DNA from: Ianthella basta
Taxonomy: Eukaryota > Porifera > Demospongiae > Verongiida > Ianthellidae
Direction: 5' to 3'
Assembly: GCA_964019415.1 (NCBI GenBank)
Contig: OZ025880.1
Span: 2,968,813-3,032,812 of the forward strand
Length of the DNA: 64,000 bases
Under the pieces are notes generated by a model, which had not been told where the DNA came from, made no database searches, and saw only the letters and a list, made by a program, of their open reading frames with translations. Positions 3,469-46,015 of the stretch are shown here, piece after piece. The position numbers and the translations under genes are program-made. Every line of letters begins with the position of its first letter. Positions within the stretch are counted from its first letter, which is position 1.

Positions 3469-3549
3469 ATGGACCTTGTCATGATCATCCTGACTGTCTT
3501 TTTGGCCGGTGTTGTTCTCGTGTTGGCCACCTTCTGCGCCTGGTTTCGG
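3469..3549 (+). CDS. Candidate exon 1 of NLR gene: hydrophobic N-terminal segment
   Basis: ATG at 3469 opens 27 codons beginning MDLVMIILTVFLAG and ending ATFCAWFR, followed by GTGAGC, a good splice donor in phase 0. About 22 consecutive hydrophobic residues would form a signal anchor or signal peptide. The next candidate exon (6052) also starts in phase 0. Assignment to the NLR gene rests only on strand, position and phase. It could instead be the first exon of another gene or chance. Confidence 0.35.
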
Positions 3550-6500
3550 GTGAGCCTGAACTCTGCCTGGTTCTTTTACCCCAAAGTATCTCGTACGTGT
3601 ACTGTGAAAGGGGAGCATCGGAGCTCTCTGGCAAGGCAACGGACTACGGTAAATGATCGATCAAGATGCGAGCAGGTTAGCGATGGCAGTGTTGTAATGT
3701 GTGTTGTATTTCTGTGGTTGCTAGCTAGCTACATGGTTTAGGTAGCTTGCTAACAGATAGATACAAAGCGTGAAGTGACTTGAATGTTTCCAGTCCTGTT
3801 CGCGTAGTGCAGATATCACAGATAATGGAATCTCTGCCCATCCTGCTGGTGTTTTCTATTTTATTAACAAATATATATTATACGTAGATAGAGATCCCGT
3901 TACCATGGCAACGAGCCTCTTTTCGCCATCTCTAAATCTCGTAGACACCCCAGCTTTACCTTCGCACCACAACTTCTATTTCGTCTAGCTGGGCATTAAC
4001 TAAGGCGTGTCGTTCACACTGGGAATTTTATAGCAGAGCACTGCAGCTGTTCCTAATTCCTGTTACGATATGATTCACAGGTCGCCCAATTAACTTACTT
4101 GTTTTGTTGATAAGCAGGGTACAGCAACAATCCGGCTACGAAGCAGAGCCAAGAAATTGGACTGCAGCTGGTTATGAGCTATGCAGGGAACAGGCTTTGT
4201 TAGCTAGCTAAGTACACAGCTCTGGAAAACACTGTGGCTAACGTGACTGACAGTGAGTAAAGTTACGCTTAGCTGATGCGCTGCATCCACTGCAGCTGCC
4301 AACCTGTAGGAAACTACTGCTGTGAGATGACCAACCTAACTTGAGAACCAAATCACACAACGTTTTCTCCACCACTGTCAGGAGTAGCTAGCTGCTTCGG
4401 GAAGACGTGTGATGATGCAAGGACAAGTAGATAAGCTGATTTGCTGCCGCCTCCTCACCCAATCGTTTGGGATCTATAACACTTAAATGCTGACCAAGAG
4501 GTGTCTCTGAAGATGTACACCACTCGGCACTCTGGCGCTTTGCGCCCTCGTGCCTCGTGCTCTAATTATAAATCTCAGAGACACCTCTTGGTCAGCATTT
4601 AACTACATTGTCACTTTCTGAAGCTTGTACATTAGATATCATTAGGATAGAGACGTACCATACAATGTGGTCCATTAAGTTGCAGACTGTGGAGCCTAAA
4701 AAACATGATACCTGCTTTATATGGGAACGCTGTCAGCGACTCAGTGATTCAGAGACATCCCCTGTGGTCACATCTTGCCATTTTTATATAATACTCGGTT
4801 AGCTTCTGGTCACCATTTCTCAGCTCGTTCTGGTGGCCTAGCATGGAAAGGTGCTGATGAGCTCCAGAAATATGGTCCTATGCCTGCATGGATGTGTATG
4901 TCCTGTGGTTGCAACTTAGTCTGCCTTCCTGACTCTATACGAATAAATAGGGTCTGGTGACCTTCACCACATACTCGTGGCACGTTAGAATGCAATTATG
5001 GCGTGATGTCATGACAATAGTTCGCACCTATGTACGTGTTTGGTAGAGGAGATTGTGTAGTTGTGTTTGCTGTGTGCAGAATGGATACTCACTCGCTCTG
5101 TCAGAGCACGCTGAAGAGCGCAAGCCAGCAAAAGAACTGTAGCAGAGCACTTGCCATTTCCTTTGGGCAGGCTGGCAAACACGTTGCTCCAGCATACAAA
5201 TTTCAAGATTACTTCCTCCTGTTTGGGTCAAAGCTTCGAATATCCCATCTGGGTTGTTACCTTCGTACTAAGTACTTTCTTCATCTCCATCGCTACAAAA
5301 GTTGCGGGATTTAATACAAAGTATTTAGCCACAACTCGAGAGAGCTCCCCGTCTAAAGATATGGCGCAACGTGATAATTAGTTGCTGCGCAATGTGATTG
5401 GCTTTGCCAACATTCCGACAGTGGCTACGAGTATGTGGCAAAAGTCACCAAACCCTATTTCTTTGTGTTTGGATATTGGGGGAAATAGGTGCTGGCGTGC
5501 GTGACTATAGCTGCAACTTAGCATGTGCAACTTGCACACCATAAAAGCACAGAAACTAGAATTAATAATACTTTTGTACAAAGAAATAGTAAGGATGCAT
5601 TTGTAGGGATGACACAAAAAGTACAGAAACAAGTAAAGGCTGTTACATGGTGCAGTATTAACCGTCGTCCCTAAATTCAATGATGTAAGACTATTTATAA
5701 GGTGCGACATTCTTGCATGTAGGGACCATAGTTAATGCTCTATTGTGTAACAACCTCTACTTGTTCCTGTACGTTTTGTGCCAACCCTACATCCTTACCA
5801 TTGTAGAAATTTTAATTAATTCTAGTATTAATTATGTGTTTAGATAAGTGCATTATGTTGTTACTTGCACTGCATATAGATGTGAGCTAGGCTTCACTGT
5901 ATCTTCAGCCTTTTATTGTTTTTTGTATATATTTGCCCTTTTGCAACTTCACCTTGCACCTTGGTGTATTTTCAATATTAATAGCAACAATTATGTGTAT
6001 GCATGGTGCAATTGCTGTATAACGTCCATCTCATTTCTGACTAACCAATAGACTAGTGGACAGTTTGCAAAGGGAATTATCCCAGAGGATATTTCTGGTT
6101 CTCAAGACAGTGATTCCCCATGGCCACCAAAAAAAGGATCCTCTGTAAGCAAGCAGCAGTCTGATGAGATGCAGCCATCCACAGTTGCAGACCCTTCCTT
6201 GGCACCACTACCGAATGAAGATGTGTCCTTAGGTACCTATGACATTGTATTGTATGCTTGTGTGTGTGCACATCAGTGTTCTCTCTATATAAGAGCTTCT
6301 TCTGAAGGGTATGGTAGACTCTGATAGATTTATGTGATCTGATTGGTTATTCCGGGATCTCGGAATGAAACGTCACTGCGCCAGGAATGTGGGCTCAGTT
6401 TCCCAGACCACCTTTCGGGCCATGTATGAAATGGCAGCCGGAAGTGGGCTGGGAACGAGACTACATGGACTGAAACAACCTTCCCCACAATTTTTCTCAA

Positions 6501-9210
6501 TTTAAAACAGACAATATCTACAACGCAACGAATGTGAATTGTTTTACCAATCTCTTCCAAATGATTATTGCACACTGCATCTTTCAAAAGAAAATGCCAT
6601 GGGGACAAGCAGAGCAAAGTGAGGATCACTGTTGTTTGTGGTGCCAATGCAGCAGGAGATAAGTTGCCGCTGTTTGTCATTGGGAAGTCTAAGCAGCCAA
6701 GATGCTTCAAGGTAGTCAAGAATTTGCCCTGTTGTTACTGTCATGCTTCTTATTACAACGGCCAAAATATGCAATGACCAAGGGACGCTTCAATTAGAAG
6801 GGGGCCTAGCACGTGTGTTAGACCGGAATAGTACTTCTGAGCGCCTGCGTACGGAAGAGCGTATTGCTTTTGTTTTGCGGTGTACTGGCATTGACTGGAC
6901 TTGGCACTTGTGGGCTCCTCGCTATCAGCAAATACAGGTGCCACCTGGACATCCTCTTTGTCAAAGTTTGTCAAAGTGCAACAGAGAGCCCATCAACTGT
7001 GCTGTGACTCAGTTCCACTAACTCAAAATTGACCTTTAGTGCGAAGTGTTCCCTTTTATCAGATCTGCTCACATATTGTGAATGAAAACATGGCCGATTG
7101 CAAACGACACTCAGATTCAAAGCAGACTTCTTTACCGAGCCAAAGGATGCCAGTGGGTACTTGAGAACTTCCATTCACTCGATCAGTTCCACTAACTCAA
7201 AATTGACCTTTAGTGCGAAGTGTTCCTTTTTCTCAGATCTGCTCACATATTGCGAATGAAAACATGGCCAATTGCAAGCGACACTCAGATTCAAAGCAGG
7301 CTTCTTTACCGAGCCAAAGGATGCCAGCGGGTATTCGGGAACATATCATATCATGAAGACTATCATGAAGAAGTTTCACTCCAGAGATGAAGGGGGCGCT
7401 TCAAGAACAAAAAAGCGACAAAGTGCAGCAGGTGAGAACATGTTCTACGTACTTAAACATCAAAACGGCCTCTTGCTGTAGGCCTAATTCCTGCCTGTCC
7501 TGCCTGCTGCTGTGGACTACCACTCCTAAGTTTGGAAGTATTAGTTTCAAATGTATCTCATATCAAGTAAAACCGAAAAGAATCGGTATCCTGGTATTGC
7601 TATTCAACCTACCAGTACGAAGTGGAAGTTCGTATGTTATATTCAGTATCTAGTAAACACCAAAGTTAACTAACTATACCTAAATACTGTCCACCTGTAC
7701 CCAAGGACGCTTCAATTGGAAAGGGAAAAAATAGGTACACCCTAGTAGGCGCTTTAATTGGGGTGGCGCCTATATTAGAAATTATATGGTACGTCAAAAA
7801 CACAACTGATGGACCAAGGTGTTATCTGCACCTTGTAAGCATACTATAGGACACAATTGGTTCAGAGAGCATTACAAGAAATTGACGAACAATCTGACAG
7901 TAGCACCATAGAAATGTCAAGAACTTTGATCTTAGATGCCATGCTGATGCTAAAAGTTGTATGTAAGTGATAGAAAGCACAGTTACTGCATAATTTTGTA
8001 AAGCAGGAATCAGTGAAAGTGCCACCGACAGTAGCTACGACAATCTATTTGAAGGAATGCAAGAGCTGCAATCCATCCAGCCAGAATTGGTAGAAGCCAC
8101 AGTAACCCCTGAAGAGTGGGTCAATTCTGATGCTGTTGTCGAAACCAGTGCAGCAATTACAGACTAAGTCATCATCCAGGAATATCAGAGAACTCACGAT
8201 GGTGACGCCACTAGCGACAAGGACGGCGATGATGACTTTGAAGTGCACGACAAACTGCAGCTTCCACCGTTGATCAAACAAGTTTAGGCTGCTATGGATG
8301 TGATACAGCGGTATTCTCTTTATCTGGAAAGCACTGATGTTGCCTTACAAATAAAAGTTCATCCAATGATGCGGCAATATATAGTACAACAGAAGAATCA
8401 GGCCAAAATTACTGATTATTTGTGAGCGATTTGAGAAGATGACCCACATCACACAATATGTAAGCAATAGCTATGGGACAAAAACAGTCATGCGGGTGAT
8501 ATTTCATCAAAAAATGGATTATGGCATCATTCATATCTATAGTACAGTCCCTATCTTGTTGTCAAGTTTGAATCCTATATTCCTTCTCTGAACGAAGACT
8601 GCGAATTTACACTGTGGCCGTCGGGCGCAACGTATACGAACATGTCATGTACGCATGAAAAGCTATACATGTTATTCAAGGCAACCAAGCCTTGCTCGAA
8701 GTCGACGTACGTACACTACTCCGGCATTCCCAACGAGCGGGAAGACTTTCCCGTGCCGAGGACTAGGCAGGAATGCTTCCCACGACGACTAATCCAACTT
8801 GTCCGCCATTTGTGCCGTGACTGGAAGTCCATGTTTCTATTGCCTTTTCTTCGGCCAAGCACCTAGCGTAATTTCGTATTTTAGGCAAGCGTATTTTGGG
8901 AACTGAAGCAGCTATCAAAACGCAACAAAAGGCAATAGAGAGCTCAACCACTCATGACGGTTTAAAGCTAAAGCACGCACAGTTACTCTTTGAAATTTCT
9001 TCCAAATGGTGCATAATGGTGCGATAGAGCAAACTGCCTTCTGCCCAACAGAACCCTAGCTGCTGCAATGACTGCAGGTGTGCTGTAATGCACTTGCAGC
9101 TATCTGTGTGCCCTTCATCCATATCCCTCTCCTCTCATCTATGTCTTTTAGAGAGCATGTACATATGTTTGCATGTGTGTGTTTAGCTACATGTGTGTTT
9201 CTCTCTCTCT

Positions 9211-9266
<56 letters not shown>

Positions 9267-12200
9267 TGTGGGTGGGTGGGTGGGCGTGTGTGGGTGTGTG
9301 CGTGTATTTGATTGTGTTTTTGGCAACTCTGAGAATGTGCAAACTGTGTATAAAGTACATGTACTGTGCCGTTTTGAACGTGTGTAAAAATATTATTGAC
9401 TCTATTCATGTCCACTTCAATCGTGTTCATTCTTGCCTATGAAGTGTGTTTACAAGTGTGTTGATGAATTACACAAAATTTAATACTTGCAATAGCTACT
9501 ATATATTGATAACACAACAGCGACTGTAGACCGTAAGTATTTTAAGTTGGGCCGGCAGCCCCATGAATTTTATTTTTACTCGAAATACTTGTTTCCTAAC
9601 GTCTCTTCATGTACCTATTCTACATTTTAGAATACACAAATTAAGTGTTCGTGTTGCATGCATGTGTTGACTATTTCTATACACAAAGTACATTAGAAAA
9701 TGTGTGTCTAGTGCTAGCTGGCTATCTCCCCCTAACTATAGATGATGCTTATTTGCAAATTCGTCCCACCATGGAAGTGATATCCAGAGATGTGGTGCCT
9801 TTGATAGCTTTCCGATGGAATTATGTGGGTCTACAACTGGGGATGGTCCATGAGTGTTTAAATGTGATTGAAAAAGAGCAACGCGGAATAATGGAAGACT
9901 GCTGCACTGTCATGTTCAGTAAATGGATGCAAAATAGTTCAGGTACAGGCTGCAAGAAACGCTCATGGGAGTCAGTCCTGGATGCAGTGGACTTGGGACA
10001 CGGCAATAGTGCAAAGGAGACCATAATGAAGAAACTGAGTGAGGTTGCACCAGAGCATGGCTGCCAAGCTACTAACTGTGATCACAAGGTGACTGCATGC
10101 AAATGTGTGTAGTTAGATTGTTTACAGGCTGTGTGCAGATGTTGACTGAGGATAATCTACTCACATGAATTGATTGATGCGATTTCACAATGCAAGGCTA
10201 TTAGTGTCAACTATATGATTAGGAGCAGAGTGCTGGTTGTTCACTGCACACATACATAGTTAAGGGATTGCCCACTTTGCTCCTACATTATGTGCACTGA
10301 ATTTGGGTACATGACATGTACACCAACTCTGCTGCATTGAAGCCAATCAACCATCTCCTTGCTTCATTTGCTTTAGCTTCTACTGACATTATTGTACCAT
10401 AACCACAATGTCCCTTGTGCTGCAGTTTCCAATAGTAGCCTCTGTATTGTTTTGTTTGACCAGCTTGCCAGGAAGCCTCTGCCCCTAGCCCCAACTTGTC
10501 ATTGTGAGTGGGAGTGGAAAAAAGTAGCAGGTCTAGCAGAAGGTGTAAATTCCACACCTTGCAACCAATATGCTACTGGGTATTTATCAATAACATTGAC
10601 TACAAACAACGTTGGTAAATAAAACTCATGCAGTAACCTGGGCAAAACAATGATCAAAGTATGGAAACCATTGCCGCGTAGGCTTTCCTTGAGGATCACG
10701 AGCTTCACAGCTTGCAGTGAACGTATTATTGTCTTGAATACAGCTGTTGCCCTGTCTACTTTTGGTACAATAAGTGCCGGTGTCTCCATAATCACTGCTT
10801 TGCTCTGAGGCAACAGCAATTTCATTGGTCAGTGCGAGGTGTGGAATTTACACATTCTGCTAGACCCTGCTTTTATTCCATCACCGCAGGCGATGACAAA
10901 GTAGGGGCTAGCGGTAGTCTACAATCTTATTTGCCGTGCCATTCTCAAATTAGCACTTGTAACCTAGTTTCACATCTTGTTACTAAGGTTAAAACCATTA
11001 TAACTCCCTTTACACAGATGTGTTAATCTGCATTAAGAAACTGAATTCAAACCTCGGGATTGATTACCAATTGTGTTCCCACAGCAGCTCATAAAAATAG
11101 CCGGAAGTGTAGAGATTGTGTTGTAAGCCAGCATTTAACTTGTTAGCTGTGTTGATTATAATTTGGCTAAACTCAAAGAGATTGCTATACAGAGTGTCCT
11201 TTTTGCGTTGCAGGAGATACAAATGTGAACGAAATAATACACCCCGCTTGCAGTGGTTTGTCATCTGCTGCAGGATACGTGGCTAGACAGAATGGGGTGG
11301 GTTCAGTGTAAGGGCATGGCATAGTGTCTTTGGCCCAACTTTCTCGAAGTGTTCCATCTCACAGTTTCTCCACGTATTAGCTATCACGTTCTGCCATGTT
11401 TAACAATGATTAAAGTAGGCTGAACCCACCTGCAAGGTGGGTTCAGCCCAGTTGTTAATCTGGATTAAATCATCCATGTGAACTCTGCTTATCCAGATTT
11501 AGCCCAGATCTGACATATTAATCCGGGTTAGTAATCTATGTATTTTGCTAACCTGGTTCAACCTGGGTGAAGCAGTGCATTTTAACCCTTTGACTTGATT
11601 TTGTCCCTGTTTCAAGTGCACATGTAAAAGCAGTCTTCTTTTGTTTGTGGTACAGTTTTTTCTCTGCATGTGGGACATGACAGTCCGTTTACATAACGTG
11701 AACCTTGAGGTATTTACACCTGGAGGTGTTAACTTCTTACGTTGCCATGACTACGCACTCGCTGCATGTGATGTGTGTGTGATTTGAGAGGATTGAGAAA
11801 TTCACCGTCATATCCGGTGATGGCAAGAAACAAAACTGAAGAGGACAAGAAGAAGTTCTGGTAAGAGAGAAACAGAGCTGATGTCTTCGTCGTTCTCAAA
11901 CTTAAAAGGGATAGATGTTTCAAGTCTTTATATAAAGGAATTCACACTTGGAACTCTGCGAACGTTGAATGACATCATATGCTTGCTTCTGTTTTGTACT
12001 CCATATATGGTTTGTCATTAGAACGCCATGCGATGCGCTTGGTAAAGAGGCTTTCCTGCCATTGCTTTCACAAACCACCGTTGTCAAAACTCTGAGACAA
12101 TTTCTTGGCCAGATATCTAAAAATGAAATGGTTAGTCAAGTGAGTTTTCTACATTTTCCACAAGGGATTATGCTTTGCACCTTTTTATCTACAGTTAGGC

Positions 12201-15200
12201 AACCCGAACATTTTTTAGATCAACAAGTAGTTATAGTTTTCTTGCTATAAGTTCTCAGTAGATTGGTTGATTAACTAATCCCTCATGCAGAAGTTAGATA
12301 GTACTATTGTGCACCCAATGATGCCGTTCTCTGCACCCTTCCATTGATTTTGACATCGTCAGTTACTATTATGTTGGTGGCTTTGTAATTGTTGCTATAA
12401 CTTGATATAGCAAAAATTATTAACAACACTTAGGGTTAGGTCAGGTCAGGGTCAGGGGATCATTATTTAGACTGGGGAGCCTTTAGCCATAGGCTATTCT
12501 CCCAGGCGCCCAGTAAAGAAAAGGGAACACAGTACAAAACAAAACAGAGAGACGAAATGATGTAAAGTAAAGACATGCATGGAGGATTTACATTGTTGGG
12601 TTCATTCAAGCAGTTATAAAAAAAAATTAAAATGGAAAATAGATCATGACTGTCAAGCACATAAAGGTCAGTCCAGGAGAAAAACTTCACACTTGGTAGA
12701 GAAAGCCCGGAAATCTTTCATCTCGTGGATGTTCGCAGGGAGTGATCTCCACATAGAGGCACCAGTAAAACTGAATGACCTTTGACCAAAAGATGACCTT
12801 GGGAGCGGGAGGTTGAGTTGACAAGAAGAATACGACCGAGTGTGATAAGAGGAGTTTGGACCAGAGAAGAGCTGAGATAGGTAGGACGGACAATAAGAAG
12901 AGAGGCACTTGAAGACAGTCTGGGAAAGATGAAGCTTCTTTCTGGAGGACAGTGTTGATAGACCAAGATCGTGGCGAGCAGCAGAAGCAGAAGAGTGTTT
13001 ACATCTATGAAGAACAGTACGGCAAGCAAAGTTCAACAAAGACTCAAGGTGATGGGACTCAGATTTGGTACAGCCAAACCACACAACATCACAGTAGTCA
13101 AAGTGGGGGAGTATGAAGGACTTGAGAAAAAGAACCAGGAGAGGGCTGGGGAAGAAACCAAGAGAGACAACGAAGCAAATTTAGACTGCGAGAGACCTTC
13201 TTACAAACCATGTCAATGTGATCAACCCATGTGAGGGTGTCGTTGACTACTACTCCAAGGAATTTGTGGCACCGAACCTGCTCCACAATATTATCCTCAA
13301 TCTTCAGTGTTAAGTTGCCATCCACAATCTTTCTGCTGGAATGAATTAACATCGACTTGGTCTTTGACACATTGATCTTCAAGCCATTTCTCTGTAGCCA
13401 TAGGTTGGCAAGGTCCAGGCAAAGCTGCAATGAGGATTGAATGGAGGAAAGATTGTCGCTGACGATGTAGATGGTGGTGTCATCTGCGAACAGTACTGTG
13501 GAGTCAGGAGGAAGCACAGAATGAAGATCATTGATAAAAACAGAGAAAAGAGTAGGACCAAGTATCGAGCCTTGTGGAACATCAGAGGAAGGGAAGCCAG
13601 GGGAAGAGTAAGAGTCAGCGACACGAGTGACATGGCAACGATTGGAAAGATAAGAACAAAACCAGGAAACAGCAGAGATGGAGAGGCCAAGGTTAGAAAG
13701 CTTTGATAACAGAAGTTCGTGGCTGACAGTGTCAAAGACCTTGGAGATGTCAAGAAAGATGACTCCAACTAGTTTCTTCTGATCAAGAGCCTTGCACCAC
13801 CTGTCTAAGCAATGAAGAAGTAGAGTTTGTGTGGAGTGGGAAGGGCAAAAGCCAGATTGAAGAGGAAAGAGAAGGCTGTTGGAGTTCAAGTGTGAAGACA
13901 GCTGAAGTTGGACATGTTTTTCCATGAGTTTGCTAGTAGCTGGAAGAATGGAGATGGGTCTGTAGTTTGTTGCCTTCTCGCGGTCACCCCCCATGTGGAG
14001 TGGACGGACTGAGGCACATTTCCACTGACAGGGAAAGTTGGAAGATAAGATGGATGAATTGATGATGGATGAGAGCGGAAAGCAGATTATGGAACGACCA
14101 GCAATAAGTGCAGATGGAGGTAGTTGATCAAGGCCTGTGGCACATCTGGGTTTCAGCTTGGAGAGAGCTTGCTCACACCATTCAGGAGTAGTTGGAGACA
14201 GAGAGAGGATGGGCATGGAAGTAGAAGTGGGAGTGGCTGGGAGGAAACAGAAGAAAGAGAGGCAGGAGCAATGGTGTTACAACTGACTGAAGCAAAGTGG
14301 CTGTTAAGGGTGTCAGCAACAGAGGTAGGATCTGAGCCAGTGGAAAATGAGTTATTTGTTTGTACTGAAGTGCGGGTAGCCAACTTGAGTGTATTCCACA
14401 GAGCCGATGGATGAGACTTCTTGAGCAACAGACGATGGAAATACGCAGACTTAGCATTGCGCTGTAGCTGAACCACACGGTTCCGCTGAGCCTTGTATAT
14501 CTGCCAGGCAGTGGTAGTGGGGTTGCGTCGGTAGAACCGATAGAGCCTGTTTCTTCTGTCCATCTCCTTACGTACTGACTTGGTGATCCACGGAGATGGC
14601 TTCTTCTGTACTCTAACTGTAATAACCGGGGCATGCTGATCCAAAACGTCTGAGAATAGAAGGTTAAATGCTTCAAGTTTGTCATCTGGGTCATTAAAGG
14701 CATCCATCACACACCAGGGAACAGCAGATAGGTCTTCCTCAAAACTGGCCTTAGAAAAGTGTTTAAATGAGCGGTATCTGGTGAGGGTGGGAGAAGCATG
14801 GGGAACAGATGAGTCAATGCATAGGAGGATGGGTAGATGGTCAGAAAAAGCAGTGTCAAGGACAGAAGTGCTGGAGATGGAAATGTCTGAAGTAGTGAGA
14901 AAGAGATCAAGGACTTACTCACAGAGTTATAGAAGAGTTCTTTGTCTTTACGTTCGTACTTGTCCCACTCTGATCCAGCTGAGCCTGTGGGAGATATAAG
15001 CAAAAATAGGAAGGGCAAAACAGGCCACATGGAAGCCACATTGTTTACATAATGGATATGTCCCACATGCGATATCTGCACAGTCTATGCCATCATTGAA
15101 ATCAAAAGTATAGGAATGCATACTTTTTGCTGCCACAATTATCTACTATATTATAGTGAACTAGCAGGGGAGCCTGCCGAAGTTGGTCTTCCCTGCTACA

Positions 15201-38524: not shown

Positions 38525-38610
<86 letters not shown>

Positions 38611-41600: not shown

Positions 41601-44600
41601 GACTTCGGAGTGAGCATGTGTCTACTTTACCAACACTAATCACCTTCTGCAAGGCCAAGCATCTAGTATCACCCTCTGAATTAAACATAACAGACTCCTA
41701 ATGGCCCCCTTTGAGCTGATTCCTGGTTGTTCTCGTTAGCTGACTACTGGTTGGCGGTTTGAGCTGACTCTCCTTGAGCTGTCTCCTGGTTTTCCCCTGG
41801 AGCTGACTCCTTTGAGTGAAGGTTGAGTGGTGGTCTTAGAGTTCTGACAGTTGTCGACGGTTCCTAAGAGCTCTCATCATCCCCAAATGTCTTAATTTCT
41901 TGGTTAGTCAAGTGTTACCCTTAATGTTTGGCATATTTGCACTGCAGCAGTTGCAATTGCGTTGTAGGAAGAAACAAATAATTGCAATGATGTCATGGGC
42001 TCATTGCGTAAGCGTATGACCCGGATAACTTAAGCCCATCTTTTTGCAATCGAGCCGCTTTCTCTCGTGTAAGACAACGCTTTCGGCTATATAGCTTATG
42101 TCACCCACAGCCTTCTACTTTGTGCTAAAACATTAGCAAAGAAGCCGTCGCACCATCTCCACAGGAGGATTTTCGGAAGGAATTCGCTGCAAAATCCGTA
42201 ATCTACTTTGCTTTCTTATGCGTAAAGCAAAGATGGTGTCCCATAGTAACGTATGACAAGTCAGCGCAAAACCTTCATTTTGCAAGTTATTGTGGGAAAC
42301 CCTGCCGAGGACACCCTACAGATAGGGCTTTGACATTCAGACTGCGTTTGCTGTGAATCCTCGGGTCAGTTTCAGAGATTAGTGCGAACAAAAAATGGGC
42401 CTAGCATGTTATAGTTAGTGATGCTCTGCATCACTTACTATAACATGTGTATACCCTAGTGATACTTTGTGTGTGCCTAACATGCATGTGACTCCATGCA
42501 TTTATATTTGCAGGGTGATGGCTTCTCACCAGCATTTGAAGCTGATCTCTCTGAATGCACCACACTTCAGAAGCTGCTAGCATGGGGCTGGAATGGAATT
42601 GCCATTCCTCCATCTGTTACTGCTGCTCTGCTTAGAGCAATGAGTGCTATCAAGTCACTATCAGAAGTGTCACTGGACTGTTGTGACTTTAGTAAGTCAT
42701 TTGTTTGTGAGTAAAATTATGTGTAGAAACAAACATGTGTATATGTGTGTCATATTACCATTCAAAGCTTGTTGAGAAAGCTTTATATTCTTTGATTCTT
42801 TGTTTATGCATGGCTGCATAGTGTTACTGTGTATAAAAATTCCTTTACAATTAAAAGAGATTTAGGAATAGCCAGCAGAAAAAGCATAGAAACAAGCAGC
42901 AGTCACTCAACATCATGATGAACCACGTTTCCGTGACGTTCGCATCTGCATTCCTAATTTCCTGGTACAGCTACATGGACCACCCCCAAATGTCTAGCTA
43001 GCTAATCCCATGTAGCTACAAGGAATTAGGAATGCAGAGCGAACATCCCGGAAATGTTGTTCATCATGGTGTTACTGTTGCATGTTTCTGTGCTTTTTCT
43101 GCTGGCTATTCCTAAATCCATTTTAACTTTAAAGGAATTTTATACACTATTACATTGCAGTCTCTCATTCAGCTGCGTGTAGGCAGGCATGGAGAAACAT
43201 ACAAATGTAAATGGTGTAAGAGCTTGCAGTGATACCCATAGATTGTAAGCATTTTACAGGACATACCATATTTGACACATACTTATTTCTTGCTGCCAGA
43301 GCTATATACAGTGAACGTAAAATTTTCGTTGTGGAAATATCTTCGCTATAATCAGAGTCACCGTTATACTGCGAAATATAGTCCACAGAATATGCGCAGC
43401 ACATGTTACTCACAAGTGACACCCAGCCAGTTTGTAGAGATGATTTACCAAACTGTAAAGACTGTCCTTCTCAGAAATTCTAAGACTAGCCATCACGGAA
43501 GCCAACAAACAGGCACATGAGACAACAGTTGCACAATCATCGAAAATGAGGAGCAGAGAATACGTGAACTTCATAAGTAAATACGTCATGTCTTCTCTCG
43601 CTTCAGGCGTGTCTTGCCTCAACACTGCCACACAATACTTCACTGCAGCATCTATAGTGCTTCCACTGAGCGCAGCCATACAACTCTCCTAGTGTTGGAT
43701 AATTCCAGTAGAATTAAATTTGCATATGTGCATTGAATATCTCAGCTGTACATAGAAATGGTTTTTCCACTAATATTACCAGTGAAAATCTTCACGTTCA
43801 CGGTTTAAACTGTATGCACCTATTAGCTGGTTAGTATGATGTTCTGAGGTGTGCTCACACTTAAATGTGCACATTATTCAGAGTCATACTTGCTACCTCC
43901 ATCCTCTGCAGAATTTGAAGGTGCTGATGAGACCATGTACAGTTGTTTTCAGGAGAGCCAAGTTAGGAAGTTGGAGATGACGGAGTGTGTGAACCTATCC
44001 CCTGTCTGTCTTGCAGTCATGTGTGAAGGGCTACTTAAAAATGCCAGTTTAGAACAACTTGTGGCCAAGTCAAGCTTCATGGTGAGCAATGTCTGTACGT
44101 AGCTTGTTCATAATCTTGTATGAGGTATCATAAACACCATTGCCGGGGCAACGGCTGGTGGTTGAAATCTGTAAATGTGATATAACTGAAATAAGAGTCG
44201 TATGTACCTACATTAAATTATTATTTCACTTATGCCTTACCCAAATACTTGGAAGGTGTGAAAGCTAACAAGGAAGTGTTATTGATCACACCAAAGCACA
44301 AACACACAAATGCATTAACTTGCAGTCAGCTTCAGCTTTGCGTGGCTTTGGGAAAGTCCGCAAAGCATCAAAAAGGAAGAATACCATCACACGGAAACCA
44401 ATGCACGCAAGCCAACAACGTAAAGCGGTCCGTAGCTGAGCATATAATTAAGCCATGTACGTGACCCACACTGAAACAACAAACACATGCACAAATTTGT
44501 ATGCAACGGCACTCAAACTCACTGCAGCAGTGGGAAAGCATTGTTTCAAGGAGAACAGAAAGTCGACCAGCGATTGCAAAGAACCCTCGAAGCCTCAATC

Positions 44601-46015
44601 AATTCACTGGCTCCTTAGAGTGTTGCTCCTGTTGTTTAACTTCAGGCAAAAACTTCACAGCACTTGCAAATACAACAAGCCTAGGCAGCCACTCTTGAGA
44701 GCTGCCGTCCTGGAAGAAGCTCGCCTTTCGAATAAGAGCCTAGATGCGCTAGACAGTGTATATATCACTTATACCCAGAGCTTCAGTGCATATGAATTTT
44801 AACGCACTTGCCCTTCAGGCGCTATGCACCCTTGGGAAATGTTAAAATCCAAATACACCTCAGCGCCGTGGTATAACTGATACATATGTGAGCGGATTTG
44901 AGGAAAGGGACCATTTCGCGCTAAAAATCGATTTGAGTTAGTGGTACTGAGTCACAGCACAGTTGATGGACTCTCTGTTGCACTTTGTTGAGCTTCAATA
45001 GCTGCTTCCGTTCCCGAGTTACGCTCGCTCAATGTACGAAAATACGCTCGGTGCAATTACGAGAAAACGGCTCGTAACCCTTCCATTTTTATATCCGTAA
45101 ACATGGCGACGGCGTAACTAGTCTTCCTGGTTTGAAGCGCTGGAAAGGACTAGGCATTTCAAACTTGGCCAGGATGTTGGGACTATACCACAGTTGCGTA
45201 TGATGCAGTAATCCGACTTTACTGGAAACACGACTAGTTTGCGTGTTTTCGCCTGTACTGACACTTTATACATAGCGCGAAATGGTCCCTTTTCTCAAAT
45301 CCACTCACATATATATAGTATAAGGTACAGTTTTGTCCAAAGACACAATACCATGCATACATCCTTATTGACTTTTGGGAAGCTTTTATATTCCTTTAGT
45401 TCCTGCACATGCATAGTGGGACGTGCATATGGTCCAATGTTATGCAGTAGATGTATAGAAGACACATAGTTCTAAAGGCTGGCAGTCTCCCCTGCAGCAT
45501 GGATTTTCCACAACAGTACGATGATGAAAACCTGCATTGTTCCCTTTCCTAGAAAGATAAAGCACCAGCATCTAGGGCATTGGATAGCTGTAGGGGCCAG
45601 AGGAGATCATGCAATCCAGCCTGTATCCCCATTTCCCTGCATGTCATGCATGTTTCCAGTCTGTGACCAGTGCAGTGTTAGTTGTCACACCACACATTCC
45701 CATAACCACATGCAGGAAGAGATGAATGGTGAAGATGTGTCTGACCCTCATGTACTGGAGTCAGTGAAAACAGCAGTCATTCAGAATAAGTCTGTGAAGA
45801 GAATTGTAATCGAAGGCAGTAGATTGAGGTGGACCAATGTGGCTATTGCTATTATTGAAGGAGCACAGCAGAACACAGCTCTGAAAGAACTAAAGCTGGA
45901 AACACCAGTCATTCCAGGTCTGCAGGTGGTGGTTGAAAAACTGAGAAAAGCCAAACCAAAACTGCAGTTGGTTGTGAAAGCCGGAGATGGTGAGTGTTCA
46001 TACCCTGAGTACTAG
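3469..46015 (+). CDS. NLR-type gene: (TM?)-linker-Death-NACHT-LRR, 12-exon model
   Basis: NLR proteins are STAND NTPases that sense danger through LRRs, oligomerise through NACHT and signal through an N-terminal death-fold domain. Modelled exons: 3469-3549, 6052-6232, 9742-10088 (Death), 17399-19043 (NACHT), then LRR exons 29273-29373, 29583-29646, 30069-30232, 30332-30497, 35255-35421, 42514-42691, 43912-44081 and 45716-46015. Intron phases run 0,1,0,1,0,1,0,1,0,1,0 and every junction agrees. The sum is 3,564 nt, a multiple of three, giving 1,187 aa and a TAG stop. In this model Walker A is at residues 294-302 and the Walker B DGFDE at 373-377. Introns are swollen by transposons, up to about 10 kb. 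NACHT and Death are certain as domains. Their linkage to all LRR exons is a strong inference from phase and orientation, while exons 1 and 2 are tentative. A possible extra exon at 19250 is left out. AATAAA at 46063 fits the 3' end. Confidence 0.72.
3550..6051 (+). other. Putative first intron of NLR gene
   Basis: Apart from the hairpin repeat at 4483-4602, I find no convincing gene. Reading frames at 5030-5380 and elsewhere lack recognisable domains. Confidence 0.3.
4483..4602. repeat. Perfect 28-bp inverted repeat flanking 64 bp (TTAA ends)
   Basis: The left arm 4483-4510 and right arm 4575-4602 are exact reverse complements; each outer end begins TTAAATGCTGACC. The core contains a smaller GGCGC-TTT-GCGCC-type hairpin. 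It looks like a young, very short non-autonomous element. TTAA at both ends would fit piggyBac-type target duplication, but no autonomous partner is in the window. Confidence 0.75.
6052..6232 (+). CDS. Candidate linker exon of NLR gene
   Basis: A pyrimidine-rich tract and AG at 6050-6051 (alternative AG at 6062-6063, same phase) precede an open stretch that begins TSGQFAKGIIPEDISG and continues with Ser, Asp, Pro and Lys, ending NEDVSL before a GTACCT donor in phase 1. The composition is that of a disordered acidic linker. The phase matches the Death exon at 9742, giving ...VSLDDAYL. No domain is recognised. Confidence 0.45.
6480..8330 (+). pseudogene. Tigger/pogo-like DDE transposase remnant
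   Basis: Fragments of a pogo-clade (DDE_1) transposase appear in order. Near 6500-6530 is a frameshifted DNIYNA-like block. At 6595-6735 is a block containing KVRITVVCGANAAGDKLPLF and GKSKQPRCFK. After a gap, 8000-8160 reads DNLFEGMQELQ and TPEEWVN with an acidic tail, and 8165-8330 matches the typical C-terminus. The catalytic core between them is disrupted by other repeats (7010-7345), so it is dead. It sits in an intron of the NLR gene, sense orientation. Confidence 0.7.
7010..7345. repeat. Tandem duplication, period 174 bp
   Basis: The segment beginning CAGTTCCACTAACTCAAAAT at 7010 recurs at 7184 with few differences and ends near GGATGCCAG at about 7345. Each unit carries the terminal part of the 424-bp MITE family seen at 34696 and 44887 (CTTTAGTGCGAAGTGTTCC...CTCACAT), so a partial MITE copy was duplicated with its flank. 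Confidence 0.75.
8425..8995. repeat. Degraded copy of the 424-bp TIR element family
   Basis: It starts TGTGAGCGATTTGAGAAGA, like the termini at 34696 and 44887. It later contains GTATTTTGGGAACTGAAGCAG and CAACAAAAGGCAATAGAGAG, the inner right-end sequence of that family. The middle has diverged or been replaced. Confidence 0.5.
9213..9310. repeat. (GT)n microsatellite with GGGT variants
   Basis: About 100 bases of GT dinucleotides grading into GGGT repeats. Open frames across it encode only repeats of Cys-Val or Thr-His and are not genes. Confidence 0.9.
9742..10088 (+). CDS. Death-domain exon of NLR gene
   Basis: The acceptor AG at 9740-9741 leads into a phase-1 exon that ends ...CDHK before GTGACT (phase 0). 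The encoded 116 residues carry the hallmarks of a Death domain (six-helix homotypic interaction module). These are RWNYVGLQLGM (W..LG..LG), the Ile-Glu pair of VIEKEQ, CCTVMFSKWMQ (C...F..W) and RSWESVLDAVD (tW..ll.al), each followed by typical spacing. It would recruit Death-containing adaptors. Phase 0 joins directly to the NACHT exon at 17399. The donor is not strong, so a slightly different 3' boundary is possible. Confidence 0.72.
10089..11295 (+). other. Intron sequence between Death and NACHT exons
   Basis: No convincing exon or element is identified. Several open frames of 64-108 codons lack domains. Confidence 0.35.
11296..11448. repeat. Small TIR repeat plus perfect 14-bp hairpin
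   Basis: GGTGGGTTCAG at 11296-11306 is mirrored by CTGAACCCACC at 11420-11430, framing about 135 bp. At 11418-11448 GGCTGAACCCACCT-GCA-AGGTGGGTTCAGCC is an exact hairpin, as if two such termini lie back to back. Confidence 0.6.
11668..15068. mobile_element. TIR element copy 1, split by a LINE
   Basis: The left end GCATGTGGGACATGACAG is followed by TTTACATAACGTGAACC. The right end (15040-15068) reads TTTACATAATGGATATGTCC then CACATGC, its inverted counterpart. Sequence from 11690 to about 12030 is the same family as 15480-15800 (copy 2). The LINE at 12431-14915 sits inside it. No transposase is recognised, so it is probably a non-autonomous DNA transposon. Confidence 0.5.
12431..14915 (-). 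pseudogene. 5'-truncated CR1/Jockey-like LINE, copy 1
   Basis: The minus strand encodes, in order: the end of an endonuclease (LTTSDISIS, FSDHLPILL at about 14900-14840), a linker, a full RT (14216-13098) and a C-terminal region (13084-12668). The RT has TNYRPISILP, LQSGFCPSHST, GVIFLDISKVFDTVSHE, VPQGSILGPTLF and VLFADDTT, where FADD is the catalytic core. Frameshifts at about 14200 and 13090 break the frame. The 3' end has a stem-loop (12472-12505) and a tail of CCTGA-like repeats (12430-12457). A second copy is at 59055-60015. It lies antisense to the NLR gene, between the Death and NACHT exons. Confidence 0.85.
15263..15291 (+). ncRNA. Hammerhead-ribozyme-like core (candidate)
   Basis: CTGACGA, then a short imperfect stem (AGGCC-TATGT-GGCT), then GAAA and TGTC matches the order CUGANGA / stem II / GAAA of hammerhead ribozymes. 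GACA just upstream can pair with TGTC, but I cannot place a normal stem I and cleavage site, so this may be only a degenerate or half motif of the kind carried by Penelope-like elements and retrozymes. Confidence 0.3.
15460..16345. mobile_element. TIR element copy 2
   Basis: It starts TGTGGGACATGTCGACTTAG with TTTACATAAAAGTGAACC and ends TTTACATAGGACATGTCCTA. About 350 bp after the left end closely follows 11690-12030 (AGAGCTGATGTCTT, CTCCATATATGG). Length is about 885 bp. No protein is recognised. Confidence 0.5.
16346..17398 (+). other. Intron sequence upstream of the NACHT exon
   Basis: No exon or element recognised. It ends in a strong pyrimidine tract and ACATACAG acceptor at 17398. Confidence 0.35.
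17399..19043 (+). CDS. NACHT exon of NLR gene
   Basis: One 1,645-nt exon, from acceptor ACATACAG to donor GTAAGT at 19044, is open in a single frame from TGT 17399; internal Met codons are not needed as starts. NACHT is a STAND-class P-loop ATPase that switches NLRs from closed to oligomeric. Visible motifs are Walker A GVPGSGKST (17669-17695), Walker B LIIFDGFDE (17894-17920, with the second acidic pair typical of NACHT), a sensor-like FLVTTRP (about 17994-18014), the VPQMLLMVC helix, and a winged-helix/NOD2-like tail containing HLILQEFMAALTVAS (18526-18570). The C-terminal part after about 18800 (AWCIAQYCKQ, LVRVELPRMD) already looks LRR-like. Exon phase is 0 in and 1 out, which fits both the Death exon and the first LRR exon. 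There are no disabling mutations, so it is probably functional. Confidence 0.95.
19250..19433 (+). CDS. Possible degenerate LRR exon
   Basis: After a CTCACTAAAG acceptor the phase-1 frame reads NTYGSLSESQLNICVSQLSI and then DNCDKIMVWIAQNCK, echoing the AWCIAQYCK segment at the end of the NACHT exon. It runs into TAA at 19431 without an obvious donor. It could be an alternative terminal exon, a decayed LRR exon, or chance. Confidence 0.3.
19560..20560 (-). pseudogene. Gypsy-type gag-protease remnant
   Basis: The minus strand shows a gag motif resembling the conserved 'leucine-rich ... TLDKVLTIAQSLETVE' region (about 20140-20070), a zinc-knuckle pair CYCCGG and ICHSKGN (19920-19860), and a retropepsin-like block MEFNTGAAVSVMS (about 19660-19620; DTGA has become NTGA). 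Stops and shifts occur throughout, and no RT or LTR is seen. It is the left-over 5' coding half of an LTR retrotransposon in an NLR intron, antisense. Confidence 0.65.
20849..21880. mobile_element. MITE-B copy 1 with internal insertion
   Basis: The left end GGGTGAGTAGTTTTGCCAAA and about 300 bp after it match, in reverse orientation, the 490-bp MITE at 47712-48199; homology resumes at about 21767 (TTTACAAGGGAATACC). The 592 bp at 21175-21766, starting CGAGCC and ending GGCTCG, are absent from the other copy and are a later insertion. Confidence 0.6.
21881..24300 (+). other. Intron sequence, nothing recognised
   Basis: I see no exon with both splice signals and LRR-like residues, and no recognisable transposon protein here. 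Confidence 0.35.
24567..25602 (+). pseudogene. PIF/Harbinger transposase (broken)
   Basis: The protein is the DDE nuclease of PIF/Harbinger elements (DDE_Tnp_4). It reads across two shifts (about 24780 and 24925) and an in-frame TGA at about 25357. Blocks are the N-terminal RRIDFSVNTIRSWND and FRYLCIELRGRLQRR; then FGAIDGSHIPI (first D), RKGLHSIVLQA, YVGWPGSVHDARIF; then ILGDPAYPLL (second D); then ARAIVECAFGRLK (E); and FILHNMCE. All three catalytic residues survive, but the frame does not. Its partner Myb-like gene is the minus-strand gene at 27603-28811, the usual two-gene Harbinger arrangement, here split by a nested LINE. Confidence 0.88.
25690..27458 (-). pseudogene. RTE-like LINE, 5'-truncated, nested in Harbinger
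   Basis: The minus-strand frame 27458-26223 encodes a nearly intact RT: RWMEHFSESLEG, KRGKAAGVCGI, NYRGISLLSIPGK, FRVGRGCRDQIFVMRQLAEK, AAFIDPEKAYDKVWRE, VRQGCPLSPWLFN and LLMFADDTVLLAE (catalytic ADD). After a shift, 26305-25859 gives the C-terminal region (EPTLTYGAKSWVLKE, RPRGRPRKRW). The 3' end is a (GAT)n tract at 25690-25718 (ATC on the plus strand), typical of RTE-type tails. The endonuclease is missing, so it is a dead 5'-truncated insertion. It is relatively young compared with other LINEs here. Confidence 0.85.
27603..28811 (-). pseudogene. Harbinger Myb/SANT-like DNA-binding protein
   Basis: 28811-28563 encodes a trihelix Myb/SANT-like domain starting MAEQGKFWTEMETKFLIDTW with later CRAKIKALK. 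After shifts (about 28560-28460) comes FKFPFFDDINVVMG, the conserved block after this domain. Frame 28463-27603 then gives a Pro/Ser/Thr-rich region, a basic EKKRRKTK stretch and a Lys/Glu/Arg coiled coil. In Harbinger elements this protein brings the transposase to the element ends and the nucleus. The gene is convergent with the transposase at 24567. The ATG at about 28769 (MAEQGKFW) is the likely start. Confidence 0.75.
28812..29272 (+). other. Intron sequence before the first LRR exon
   Basis: It holds an ACCCACCC-AAA-GGGCGGGT hairpin at about 29047-29066, which resembles ends at 34017 and 46108. No gene is seen. Confidence 0.35.
29273..29646 (+). CDS. LRR exons (29273-29373 and 29583-29646) of NLR gene
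   Basis: The first exon follows TTTCTACAG and reads LPTVRQFLLKQAKLKYFTFG before GTATTA (phase 1 in, 0 out). The second follows TTTCTTGTAG and reads AVMTHHKESLEEVALHGIF before GTGTGT (phase 0 in, 1 out). Together they make about one and a half leucine-rich repeats. The phases fit both the NACHT exon and the next LRR exon. They are shorter than the other LRR exons, so boundaries are less certain. Confidence 0.55.
30069..30497 (+). CDS. LRR exons (30069-30232 and 30332-30497) of NLR gene
   Basis: The first exon (164 nt, phase 1 to 0) encodes SLVESFVACQRLTSLELRDI and LHNLKALKLETVSLSDEE, two LRRs with the L..L.L strand signature. The second (166 nt, phase 0 to 1) encodes LHHNLIELTVERCSK and KRRDVEKLAVAQYEE. 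Both have clean AG and GTAAGT/GTGAGT borders and are 100 bases apart. LRR arrays form curved solenoids that bind ligands or keep NLRs inactive. Confidence 0.75.
30498..32119 (+). other. Intron sequence with faint RT remnant
   Basis: Mostly nothing recognised. On the minus strand near 31440-31340 a short LEEYGIRGSLVKAVK-like stretch resembles a LINE RT fragment, but it is too short to be sure. Confidence 0.3.
32120..33315 (+). pseudogene. Gypsy-type gag-protease remnant, second family
   Basis: In the plus strand a gag-like region (WKWEFEQFRL-like, about 32195-32240) is followed by zinc knuckles CSQCGQGPHPRQQC and then HNCKKKGHYSAQ (about 32770-32880). Next is a retropepsin block VNGHEVPFKVDTGAEVTVIS (32995-33060, catalytic DTGA intact). 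After it comes IFVVKHLQHSLLGLPAIQGL (about 33195-33260), as in Gypsy proteases. Frameshifts abound, and RT, integrase and LTRs are missing. It differs in orientation and sequence from the remnant at 19560-20560. Confidence 0.75.
33306..33640 (-). pseudogene. LINE ORF N-terminal fragment with 2A-like motif
   Basis: The minus frame 33631-33299 contains LLLLAGDVEVNPGP. GDVEVNPGP (33391-33365) fits the D-V/I-E-x-N-P-G-P consensus of 2A ribosome-skipping peptides, which some non-LTR retrotransposons (for example sea urchin STR elements) and some NLR proteins carry at their N-terminus. It is followed by a Cys-containing stretch GACARCYSS and then abruptly by the Gypsy protease remnant of the other strand. 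The rest of the LINE is absent. It is not in frame with any NLR exon and lies antisense to that gene. Confidence 0.6.
34005..34560. repeat. Repeat starting with CCCACCC-TTT-GGGCAGG hairpin
   Basis: CTAGCTGAATGCCCACCCTT at about 34008 matches the reverse complement of 29045-29078 and resembles 46100-46125. The following 500 bp contain two related blocks (34200-34310 and 34365-34500), both with AAAATGGYGTSTCGGCC and GGCAGCTAGGYGARYRGC, so it is internally duplicated. No protein recognised. Confidence 0.5.
34696..35119. mobile_element. 424-bp TIR element (MITE-A), copy
   Basis: Termini TGTGAGCAGATTTGAGAAAA and its inverted version ...CTTTTCTAAGATCCGCTCACA enclose 424 bp that match 44887-45309 in the opposite orientation, including CATCCTGGCCAAGTTTGAAA. 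No coding capacity. A non-autonomous DNA transposon. Confidence 0.8.
35255..35421 (+). CDS. LRR exon of NLR gene
   Basis: Acceptor CTCTACAG, donor GTAAGT, 167 nt, phase 1 to 0, the same type as 30069-30232. It encodes MRTGSLKALSIGLASLLAEQ and then LPRCTQLVELELVLESDK, two LRRs. Confidence 0.72.
35422..36539 (+). other. Intron sequence, nothing recognised
   Basis: No exon-like LRR segment with splice borders and no transposon protein is visible. Confidence 0.35.
36540..36810 (-). pseudogene. pogo/CENP-B-like transposon N-terminal remnant
   Basis: Across frameshifts the minus strand reads FTQRKRLVLGK, VAEYGV, PKKSSVRT and KKRGHPLLLGSELD. This matches the N-terminal helix-turn-helix region and the KKRGRPLLLG linker common in pogo-like transposases of cnidarians and sponges. 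The DDE domain is missing. The frame further upstream to 37051 is probably unrelated. Confidence 0.45.
36811..38526 (+). other. Intron sequence with a mirrored GTGACTTTCAC motif
   Basis: No exon recognised. At about 38200-38250 GTGACTTTCAC and GTGAAAGTCAC form an inverted pair, with further GGGTGYGACTTTCACTC copies up to 38275; probably part of a short repeat. Confidence 0.35.
38527..38609. repeat. (AC)n microsatellite
   Basis: An uninterrupted CA dinucleotide array of about 80 bases. Frames across it are artefacts. Confidence 0.95.
39260..40880 (-). pseudogene. Retroelement polyprotein remnant (RT-associated, nuclease-like C-terminus)
   Basis: On the minus strand, consecutive fragments match a polyprotein type widespread in cnidarian and sponge genomes. 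They are ERSWWGYLNRNEPGYGYHTK, ASKSWLLVKEAA and TTEGKRLLGAAIG (40874-40650), then PSLTGRSPPGNNERDRLALS and RLGGLSLVNPTK (40360-40260). Near 39980-39890 come CVCGQVFTIAHTLSC and then GGY. Next are NNLRDINADLLEEVCSDVTV and ARLDISVRGFW...SFFDVRVFNP (39865-39640), and last ASGRMGKAAI with SFALLRSAVLGLRGSRTK (39535-39350). The ARLDI...FFDVRV block could be a PD-(D/E)xK-like nuclease core (inference). Shifts and an inserted inverted repeat (40495-40621) make it inactive. Confidence 0.6.
40495..40621. repeat. Foldback insertion, 29-bp arms
   Basis: TATAGTGCAAGACACCATAA at 40495 and its inverse ending at 40621 form 29-bp arms with one mismatch around a 69-bp centre. It interrupts the retroelement remnant, so it inserted later. 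Confidence 0.75.
41525..41825. repeat. Degenerate minisatellite (GAGCTGACTCCTGGT)
   Basis: Variants of TTTGAGCTGAYTCCTGGTKG recur about eight times at irregular spacing at 41528-41606 and 41708-41815, with an unrelated stretch between. Confidence 0.65.
42514..42691 (+). CDS. LRR exon of NLR gene
   Basis: Acceptor TTATATTTGCAG, donor GTAAGT, 178 nt, phase 0 to 1. It encodes LSECTTLQKLLAWGWNGIAI and IKSLSEVSLDCCDF, two LRRs. It pairs in phase with the exons at 35255 and 43912. Confidence 0.75.
42831..43145. mobile_element. Foldback MITE-C, copy 1
   Basis: Nearly the whole 315 bp is a palindrome. The left half (AAATTCCTTTACAATTAAAA, GGAATAGCCAGCAGAAAAAG) is mirrored by the right half (CTTTTTCTGCTGGCTATTCC, TTAACTTTAAAGGAATTT), outer ends GTATA...TATAC. 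A second copy lies at 47398-47704. No coding capacity. Confidence 0.85.
43912..44081 (+). CDS. LRR exon of NLR gene
   Basis: Acceptor CCTCTGCAG, donor GTGAGC, 170 nt, phase 1 to 0. It encodes SQVRKLEMTECVNLS and LLKNASLEQLVAKSSFM, two LRRs. Confidence 0.72.
44887..45309. mobile_element. 424-bp TIR element (MITE-A), copy
   Basis: Ends TGTGAGCGGATTTGAGGAAA and ...CTTTTCTCAAATCCACTCACA form TIRs of about 36 bp (with the inner GGGACCATTTCGCGCTA). Body matches 34696-35119 inverted. Confidence 0.85.
45716..46015 (+). CDS. Terminal LRR exon of NLR gene
   Basis: Acceptor CACATGCAG, phase 0. It encodes about 92 LRR-rich residues (IQNKSVKRIVIEGSRLRW, NTALKELKLETPVIPGLQVV, LRKAKPKLQLVVKAGDG), then ECSYPEY and TAG at 46013-46015. 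A GTGAGT after GGAGATG (45990) could be used as a donor to a further exon, but the stop plus AATAAA at 46063 favours this being the 3' end. Confidence 0.72.
   Translation, partial: EEMNGEDVSDPHVLESVKTAVIQNKSVKRIVIEGSRLRWTNVAIAIIEGAQQNTALKELKLETPVIPGLQVVVEKLRKAKPKLQLVVKAGDGECSYPEY

Follow-up and report, generated by a model that had tools for sequence, protein, structure and literature searches.

A conserved Death-NACHT-LRR gene with a probable N-terminal membrane anchor and transposon-bearing introns in the sponge Ianthella basta

Can a chain of short open segments, dispersed over tens of kilobases of transposon-rich DNA, be read as one gene, and what protein would it encode? This question is raised by a stretch of 64,000 nt of the Ianthella basta genome (C13:2968813-3032812, hereafter the window), in which a first-pass annotation had proposed a Death-NACHT-LRR gene on the forward strand, running from 3469 to 46015 and consisting of twelve phase-matched exons with a total length that is a multiple of three. 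Exon boundaries were placed from tblastn matches to paralogs together with AG/GT dinucleotides, and the gene could be rebuilt as 12 AG/GT-bounded segments on the + strand with a total of 3690 nt, encoding 1229 amino acids. Position 3469 is the A of the ATG that opens MDLVMIILTVFL... and the TAG at 46013-46015 closes an LRR-like frame. The cumulative phases at the 11 junctions are 0,1,0,1,0,1,0,1,0,1,0, with a single terminal stop. As the phases alternate along the modelled chain, dropping any one internal exon breaks the frame. The features of the gene model, all on the + strand, are:

3469-3675 (+): exon 1, ATG and N-terminal hydrophobic, signal-anchor-like segment; ends in phase 0, donor GTTAGC
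6052-6232 (+): exon 2 (probable), candidate Ser/Pro/Gln-rich linker; phase 0 to 1, donor GTACCT
9742-10088 (+): exon 3, Death domain; phase 1 to 0, aligned with C5 relatives
17399-19043 (+): exon 4, NACHT with Walker A and Walker B, followed by helical domains; phase 0 to 1, PF05729
29273-29373 (+): exon 5, LRR part; phase 1 to 0, 101 nt also in the C4 paralog, found in the C8 paralog
29583-29646 (+): exon 6, LRR part; phase 0 to 1, C4 and C8 paralogs
30069-30232 (+): exon 7, LRR part; phase 1 to 0, 72% identity to C4 and 67% to C8
30332-30497 (+): exon 8, LRR part; phase 0 to 1, C4 and C8 paralogs, 60% identity
35255-35421 (+): exon 9, LRR part; phase 1 to 0, 72% identity to C4, fragment only in C8
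42514-42691 (+): exon 10, LRR part; phase 0 to 1, 178 nt also in the C4 paralog, found in the C8 paralog
43912-44081 (+): exon 11, LRR part; phase 1 to 0, C4 and C8 paralogs
45716-46015 (+): exon 12, last LRR part with the TAG stop at 46013-46015; 58% identity to C4 and 65% to C8
46061-46066 (+): candidate poly(A) signal AATAAA, from sequence, 46 nt past the stop

The predicted twelve-exon frame could thus be rebuilt, with the restriction that exon 2 is weakly supported, so that two of the eleven junctions are unproven. Exon 12 has an extra C-terminal tail relative to the paralogs. A match at 29487-29558 that is common to the paralogs was omitted from the model, as it sits between exons 5 and 6, which are already phase-matched. 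When a hexamer coding score was trained on 30 NACHT loci, it recognised the NACHT exon but missed the small exons.

The agreement of phases at all eleven junctions had been regarded as improbable by chance, and this argument proved weak. Random sets of 12 open segments, drawn from the same stretch as the gene, often reach 11 of 11 when the boundaries can be chosen freely. When boundaries could shift within 40 nt, on average 8.1 (+) and 7.8 (-) of the 11 junctions could be matched, and complete agreement was reached by 3.3% (+) and 1.5% (-) of 5000 sets. With 60 nt of freedom this was the case for 30% (+) and 26% (-) of 3000 sets, and with 20 nt for 0.03% (+) and none (-) of 3000. The gene is counted as real because of homology, rather than because of phase agreement.

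The NACHT domain lies in a 562-residue open frame at 17378-19066, which contains PF05729 (E 6.1e-28, 98.2 bits versus a cut-off of 26.7). The Walker A and B motifs, annotated as intact, were indeed read in the NACHT exon as GVPGSGKST and VLIIFDGFDE. Mammalian NLRP3 and NLRC4 resemble this part of the product, since a PDB profile search with NACHT and the following helical region matched NLRP3 chains with E 1.2e-16 and NLRC4 with 8e-4. These two proteins carry a PYD or CARD in place of Death and are not known to have an N-terminal anchor. Genome searches covered the assembly of 209,087,449 bases in 96 contigs. With the NACHT frame as query, 79 places were found at E<=1e-20 including the query itself, the best others having 66-68% identity, and many of these places are in tandem on contigs C4, C5 and C8. 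Family counts were made on 56 of the 79 NACHT rows, excluding 23 at 54-56% identity on C10, C9 and C13. At the level of at least 57% identity, 50 of the 56 family genes sit on C4, C5 and C8, and the window gene is the sole member on its own contig. Upstream of the 56 NACHT exons, a CARD-type exon was identified in 46 cases, a Death exon in 6 and neither in 4, among the matches listed; the domain rows used here (7 of the 150 Death and 52 of the 150 CARD matches listed) lie near family NACHT exons and were picked by eye, one CARD row being entered by its end coordinate. The CARD exon of one locus (L051) matches PF00619 with E 1e-5. In the C4, C5 and C8 arrays, CARD and Death exons alternate ahead of one NACHT-LRR family.

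For comparison with paralogs, 47.6 kb around two NACHT places was taken, and when the window frames were compared with the paralog regions by tblastn, exon 1, NACHT and the LRR part had collinear, same-strand matches. In the C4 paralog, all nine exons from NACHT to stop were recovered in order, three of them at identical length, and joined they form a frame of 990 amino acids with zero internal stops. Only boundaries with the phases of the window gene were permitted in this search; equal phase was thus a condition of the search, the stop-free joined frame was not. In the C8 paralog eight of the nine exons could be recovered and exon 9 was identified as a fragment only, so that the support for all nine exons comes from the C4 paralog only. 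Past NACHT in a C5 gene, the first LRR match lies 3.6 kb into the locus (L073), which ends shortly after, and a lone low match labelled 'd' was discarded. Altogether, eleven of the twelve exons have a basis in homology: nine in the C4 paralog, the Death exon in two C5 relatives (L071 and L072) and exon 1 in 16 other copies. Across these eleven exons AG/GT is canonical and internal stops are absent. These comparisons of genomic sequence demonstrate the chain from NACHT to stop, and the first-pass annotation is supported in its main reading, a conserved Death-NACHT-LRR gene on the + strand.

The gene extends over 42.5 kb, of which 38.9 kb are introns. Its length comes from introns, the long ones bearing transposons, rather than from extra coding content. 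The introns after NACHT measure 10229, 209, 422, 99, 4757, 7092, 1220 and 1634 nt in the window (total 25.7 kb), compared with 463, 222, 302, 96, 540, 440, 611 and 615 nt in the C4 paralog (total 3.3 kb). The heavy transposon load that had been annotated was recovered as two reverse transcriptases, two DDE transposases and a gag/protease fragment inside introns:

6565-6774 (+): DNA transposon remnant DDE_1 (PF03184, E 9.7e-7), presumably Tigger/pogo-like
13098-14276 (-): retroelement reverse transcriptase, antisense (PF00078, E 1.5e-31)
24918-25358 (+): DNA transposon DDE_Tnp_4 (PF13359, E 3.2e-27), which we take to be Harbinger-like
26223-27530 (-): retroelement reverse transcriptase, antisense (PF00078, E 1.5e-38)
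32723-33208 (+): retroelement gag/aspartyl-protease fragment (PF13975, E 1.1e-7)

A 429-nt repeat was also observed as an inverted pair in two introns (34695-35123 and 44883-45310, 86% alike), perhaps a non-autonomous transposon. A transposon-swollen NLR gene can thus be recovered exon by exon via compact relatives in the same genome.

A Pfam check of the conceptual product had been proposed together with the annotation; here the NACHT model matched, and neither the Death exon nor the window LRR part gave a Pfam match at E<=1. The Death exon has 52-54% identity to the Death exons of the two C5 relatives, with a conserved acceptor; the donor in these relatives may lie 21 nt further on, in the same phase. 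In the genome, the Death exon finds C91:29015-29281 (E 1.4e-10), a place where PF00531 scores 41 bits (E 3.3e-8), this overlap being the single one spotted by eye among the matches listed (150 + 150). The exon can be assigned as a Death domain through a relative only. The Death exon of the paralog L071 reached a Pfam E of 0.057, under the cut-off, and a PDB profile search with the Death segment found no Death protein. AlphaFold prediction of the Death exon (three sequences) gave a five-helix bundle with a mean pLDDT of 71.6 for the best of five models and 44-56 for the others. For the LRR part, the C4 paralog, 59% identical to the window in this region, matched an LRR model with 1.4e-8. LRR-type motifs numbered 14 in the window versus a shuffle mean of 9.7 (p 0.086), and p was 0.015 for the C4 paralog. 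No LRR protein, and nothing else relevant, was found in a PDB profile search with the window LRR part.

Within the Death exon an in-frame ATG at 9771, in the context CCACCATGG (9766-9774), is a possible alternative start; it is missing from two relatives, which read CCACCTTGG or CTACCTTGG. Among the matches listed, the window Death exon has 53-59% identity to 11 Death places on C18 and 57-60% to the best four of its own family. This similar closeness suggests an exchange or a retention of exons.

Selection was estimated as omega on the branches of three-sequence comparisons (Nei-Gojobori, bootstrap), in which the paralogs' stem is counted with the window branch. For NACHT (548 codons, dS 0.84) omega was 0.21 [0.16-0.28], for seven of the eight LRR exons (360 codons) 0.33 [0.24-0.45] and for the anchor exon (69 codons) 0.39 [0.19-0.85]. 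Purifying selection is thereby detected on three of the four parts. The Death exon (115 codons) had an omega of 0.74 [0.42-1.37], not distinguishable from neutral, which makes a decay of the N-terminal part possible. Neutral NACHT exons simulated at 0.1 substitution per site accumulated a mean of 6.1 stops, versus 0 in the window exon. The omega values and the absence of stops indicate that selection has acted on the gene over most of its separate history. The description of the gene as living therefore holds, in the sense of conserved, for NACHT, LRR and anchor and does not extend to the Death exon.

The three parts of the annotated gene occur in the proposed order, yet the title of Death-NACHT-LRR gene omitted an N-terminal membrane-anchor exon, which is the source of the start codon at 3469. 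This codon opens MDLVMIILTVFLAGVVLVLATFCAWF, a hydrophobic segment with a mean KD value of 2.92 over 19 residues from residue 3, and no 19-residue stretch above 1.6 occurs later in exon 1 or in Death-NACHT-LRR. The segment is long enough to span a membrane, and a membrane localization is predicted. The charges of exon 1 are acidic ahead of the helix, with 9 K/R versus 3 D/E behind it. Exon 1 is conserved, with 43-68% amino acid identity to 16 other genomic copies. For fifteen of the 17 anchor copies, counting that of the window, a family NACHT exon follows 2.3-16.5 kb downstream on the same strand, with 0.7% expected (kinship uncorrected); in one of these 15, at C5:10553557, a second anchor copy intervenes before the NACHT exon. 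The position of the GT donor of exon 1 is the same in 8 of 12 aligned relatives, the remainder being three relatives on the wrong strand and one (L063) in which the exon is fused to the next. For two anchor copies, at C6:7672427-7672615 and C5:113607-113717, the 25 kb downstream contain none of the 56 family NACHT exons.

Exon 1 ends in phase 0 and the Death exon begins in phase 1, so that they cannot be joined in frame without a bridging exon or an alternative donor. In relatives, an exon designated X fits between the anchor and the Death or CARD exon from phase 0 to 1, with 160 nt in C5 and 1378 nt in C4. The gene at C5:10610648-10624698 has the order anchor, Death, NACHT as in the window, with exon X ahead of Death. 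Exon X matches 55 places at E<=10 in the genome and is present in 13 of 14 anchor-bearing family genes, the fourteenth being the window gene. It was not found in the window by DNA alignment, protein alignment or genome search, with no match on C13 even at E<=10. Counting rows up to E 2 and taking a gene as intact if any X row is stop-free, at least one such row was identified in 13 of 13 anchor-bearing genes with X versus 11 of 27 anchorless genes (Fisher 3e-4, kinship uncorrected); in one of the 13, a stop-bearing X row occurs as well. In L063:1501-1711 (C4:36823) the anchor frame continues straight into the X frame within one exon. This fusion is a natural sign of a common reading frame in at least one relative. 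Between anchor and CARD of the C4 paralog (L054:6521-7898), X consists of ~70 copies of an 18-nt QGQQAV-like unit, open over 459 codons, and other X places have open frames of up to 913 amino acids. The openness of the QGQQ array is weak evidence, as one of the other two frames is open and one has two stops, and mismatches in the repeat show no preference for third codon positions.

Between exon 1 and Death the window holds 501 open AG..GT segments of the right phase, and phase therefore selects nothing for a bridging exon. The boundaries of exon 2 (6052-6232) were picked to fit the phases. In a genome search with this segment, all four non-self matches at E<=10 (E 0.5-2.2, 44-45% identity; C5:10586620, C8:8288993, C5:10558378 and C4:52440) fall within the N-terminal part of an NLR gene; by eye, three were placed between X and CARD and the fourth behind an anchor-X pair. 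Since NLR arrays arise by duplication, these matches are hardly independent. The segment 6052-6232 is taken as a probable bridging exon. An alternative donor of exon 1 after 3592 (GTACGT) would also bridge to Death, but it is not conserved in relatives. An X-like candidate at 7063-7156 (top score 32 versus 26 for reversed queries) was rejected, as it lies in a tandem dispersed repeat, and 7994-8164 was omitted as an exon because its frame presumably resembles the C-terminus of a transposase.

The locus is very likely a single functional Death-NACHT-LRR gene (a sponge NLRD), a divergent member of its family with a probable N-terminal membrane anchor. It is rather unlikely, yet to be taken seriously, that the gene is alive from Death or NACHT on with the anchor no longer joined to it, X having been lost amid transposon insertion, exon 1 being a relic or a separate short transcript and translation starting further down, possibly at ATG 9771. 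The missing exon X, the clash of phases 0 and 1 without a third exon, the DDE_1 remnant between exon 1 and Death, and a constraint on the Death exon that is weak or unmeasurable would all fit such a history. Exon 1 itself, however, is conserved, the upper bound of its omega staying at 0.85; moreover, 6052-6232 offers a bridging exon with weak independent support, and the non-conserved donor after 3592 could bridge too.

That an old functional gene became a pseudogene recently, its expression having just ended after the transposon expansion of its introns, appears improbable. The enlarged introns after NACHT and the missing exon X are compatible with this, but eleven homology-based exons keep canonical AG/GT without an internal stop, AATAAA is present, and the broken exons that occur in some relatives are absent from the window gene. 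Scarcely credible is a chance chain, or a set of at least two separate genes for the N-terminal exons, NACHT and the LRR exons. Phase matches alone are easily obtained and introns of up to 10.2 kb separate the exons, whereas compact relatives show the identical order and strand, with the LRR part ending within about 6.2 kb of the NACHT start; on alignment with the C4 paralog this reading appears largely refuted.

If the gene is a single functional one, a signal-anchor helix at the extreme N-terminus would tether the protein to an endomembrane, with the remainder in the cytosol. The LRRs may sense a microbial or damage cue, upon which NACHT would bind ATP and oligomerise, and the clustered Death domains could recruit a Death adaptor, leading to caspase or NF-kB signalling from the anchoring membrane. 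Should the anchor be real, the signalling site of a Death-type NLR becomes testable. It is possible, if somewhat doubtful, that the gene belongs to a signal-anchored NLR subfamily, in which the anchor exon and a glutamine-rich (QGQQAV)n exon of up to ~70 units or more form an N-terminal cassette that is kept or lost together, before interchangeable CARD or Death exons and with strictly alternating phases. The (QGQQAV)n array could then be an expandable tether or a self-assembling segment that nucleates membrane signalling. Within this gene family, it is the anchor and repeat cassette that merits following.

The signal-anchored plant NLRs compared here are of the TIR type. N-terminal signal anchors are predicted for the plant proteins L6 and M, and plant NLRs with a predicted uncleaved N-terminal signal anchor, located on Golgi and tonoplast, are the nearest functional analogy, by description only and as far as the available text goes (PMC3801107). 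The sea-cucumber proteins AjNLRC4 and AjNLR-new are, in the available description, membrane-located invertebrate NACHT proteins like the predicted window product, but they differ in having Ig, transmembrane and NACHT domains, and for AjNLR-new an extracellular NACHT is reported (PMC13133943).

Among sponges, 126 bona fide NLRs, 25 with DEATH and 20 with CARD, are given for Dysidea avara in the text available (Koutsouveli et al., 2026, PMC12909245). Putative membrane-bound NLRs are described there for D. avara, the first report being that for Amphimedon queenslandica (Yuen et al., 2014, as cited by PMC12909245). According to the available part of this source, the NLRD genes of both sponges share with the window gene the domain order, a large expansion, a conserved NACHT core and putative transmembrane segments in some members. 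In contrast to what is described there, the anchor of the window gene is a dedicated, conserved first exon common to CARD-type relatives, and the intron phases and the exon-X repeat are known from the present analysis alone. The D. avara NLR TR172577_c0_g1 was up-regulated after microbial stimuli and counted among the strongest responders to microbial patterns (Pita et al., 2018, PMC6208332); by description only, and within the text available, it can be likened to the window gene, being a bona fide NLR of a sponge for which a transmembrane domain is predicted. Death-NACHT-LRR domains with putative transmembrane segments are therefore already published for sponge NLRs, and the window gene adds one more. 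An NLR family that combines an anchor exon with a QGQQ repeat exon was not found described in the available text of open-licence PMC papers. To the domain predictions on which the available literature on membrane-anchored NLRs of sponges is based, evidence at the level of exons is added here.

Adjoining the gene, integrin-beta-like fragments and a separate hydrophobic stretch were observed at 51400-53634 (-); the fragments match PF23105 (Integrin EGF) with E 1.7e-5 and 25.2 bits, just below the cut-off of 27.
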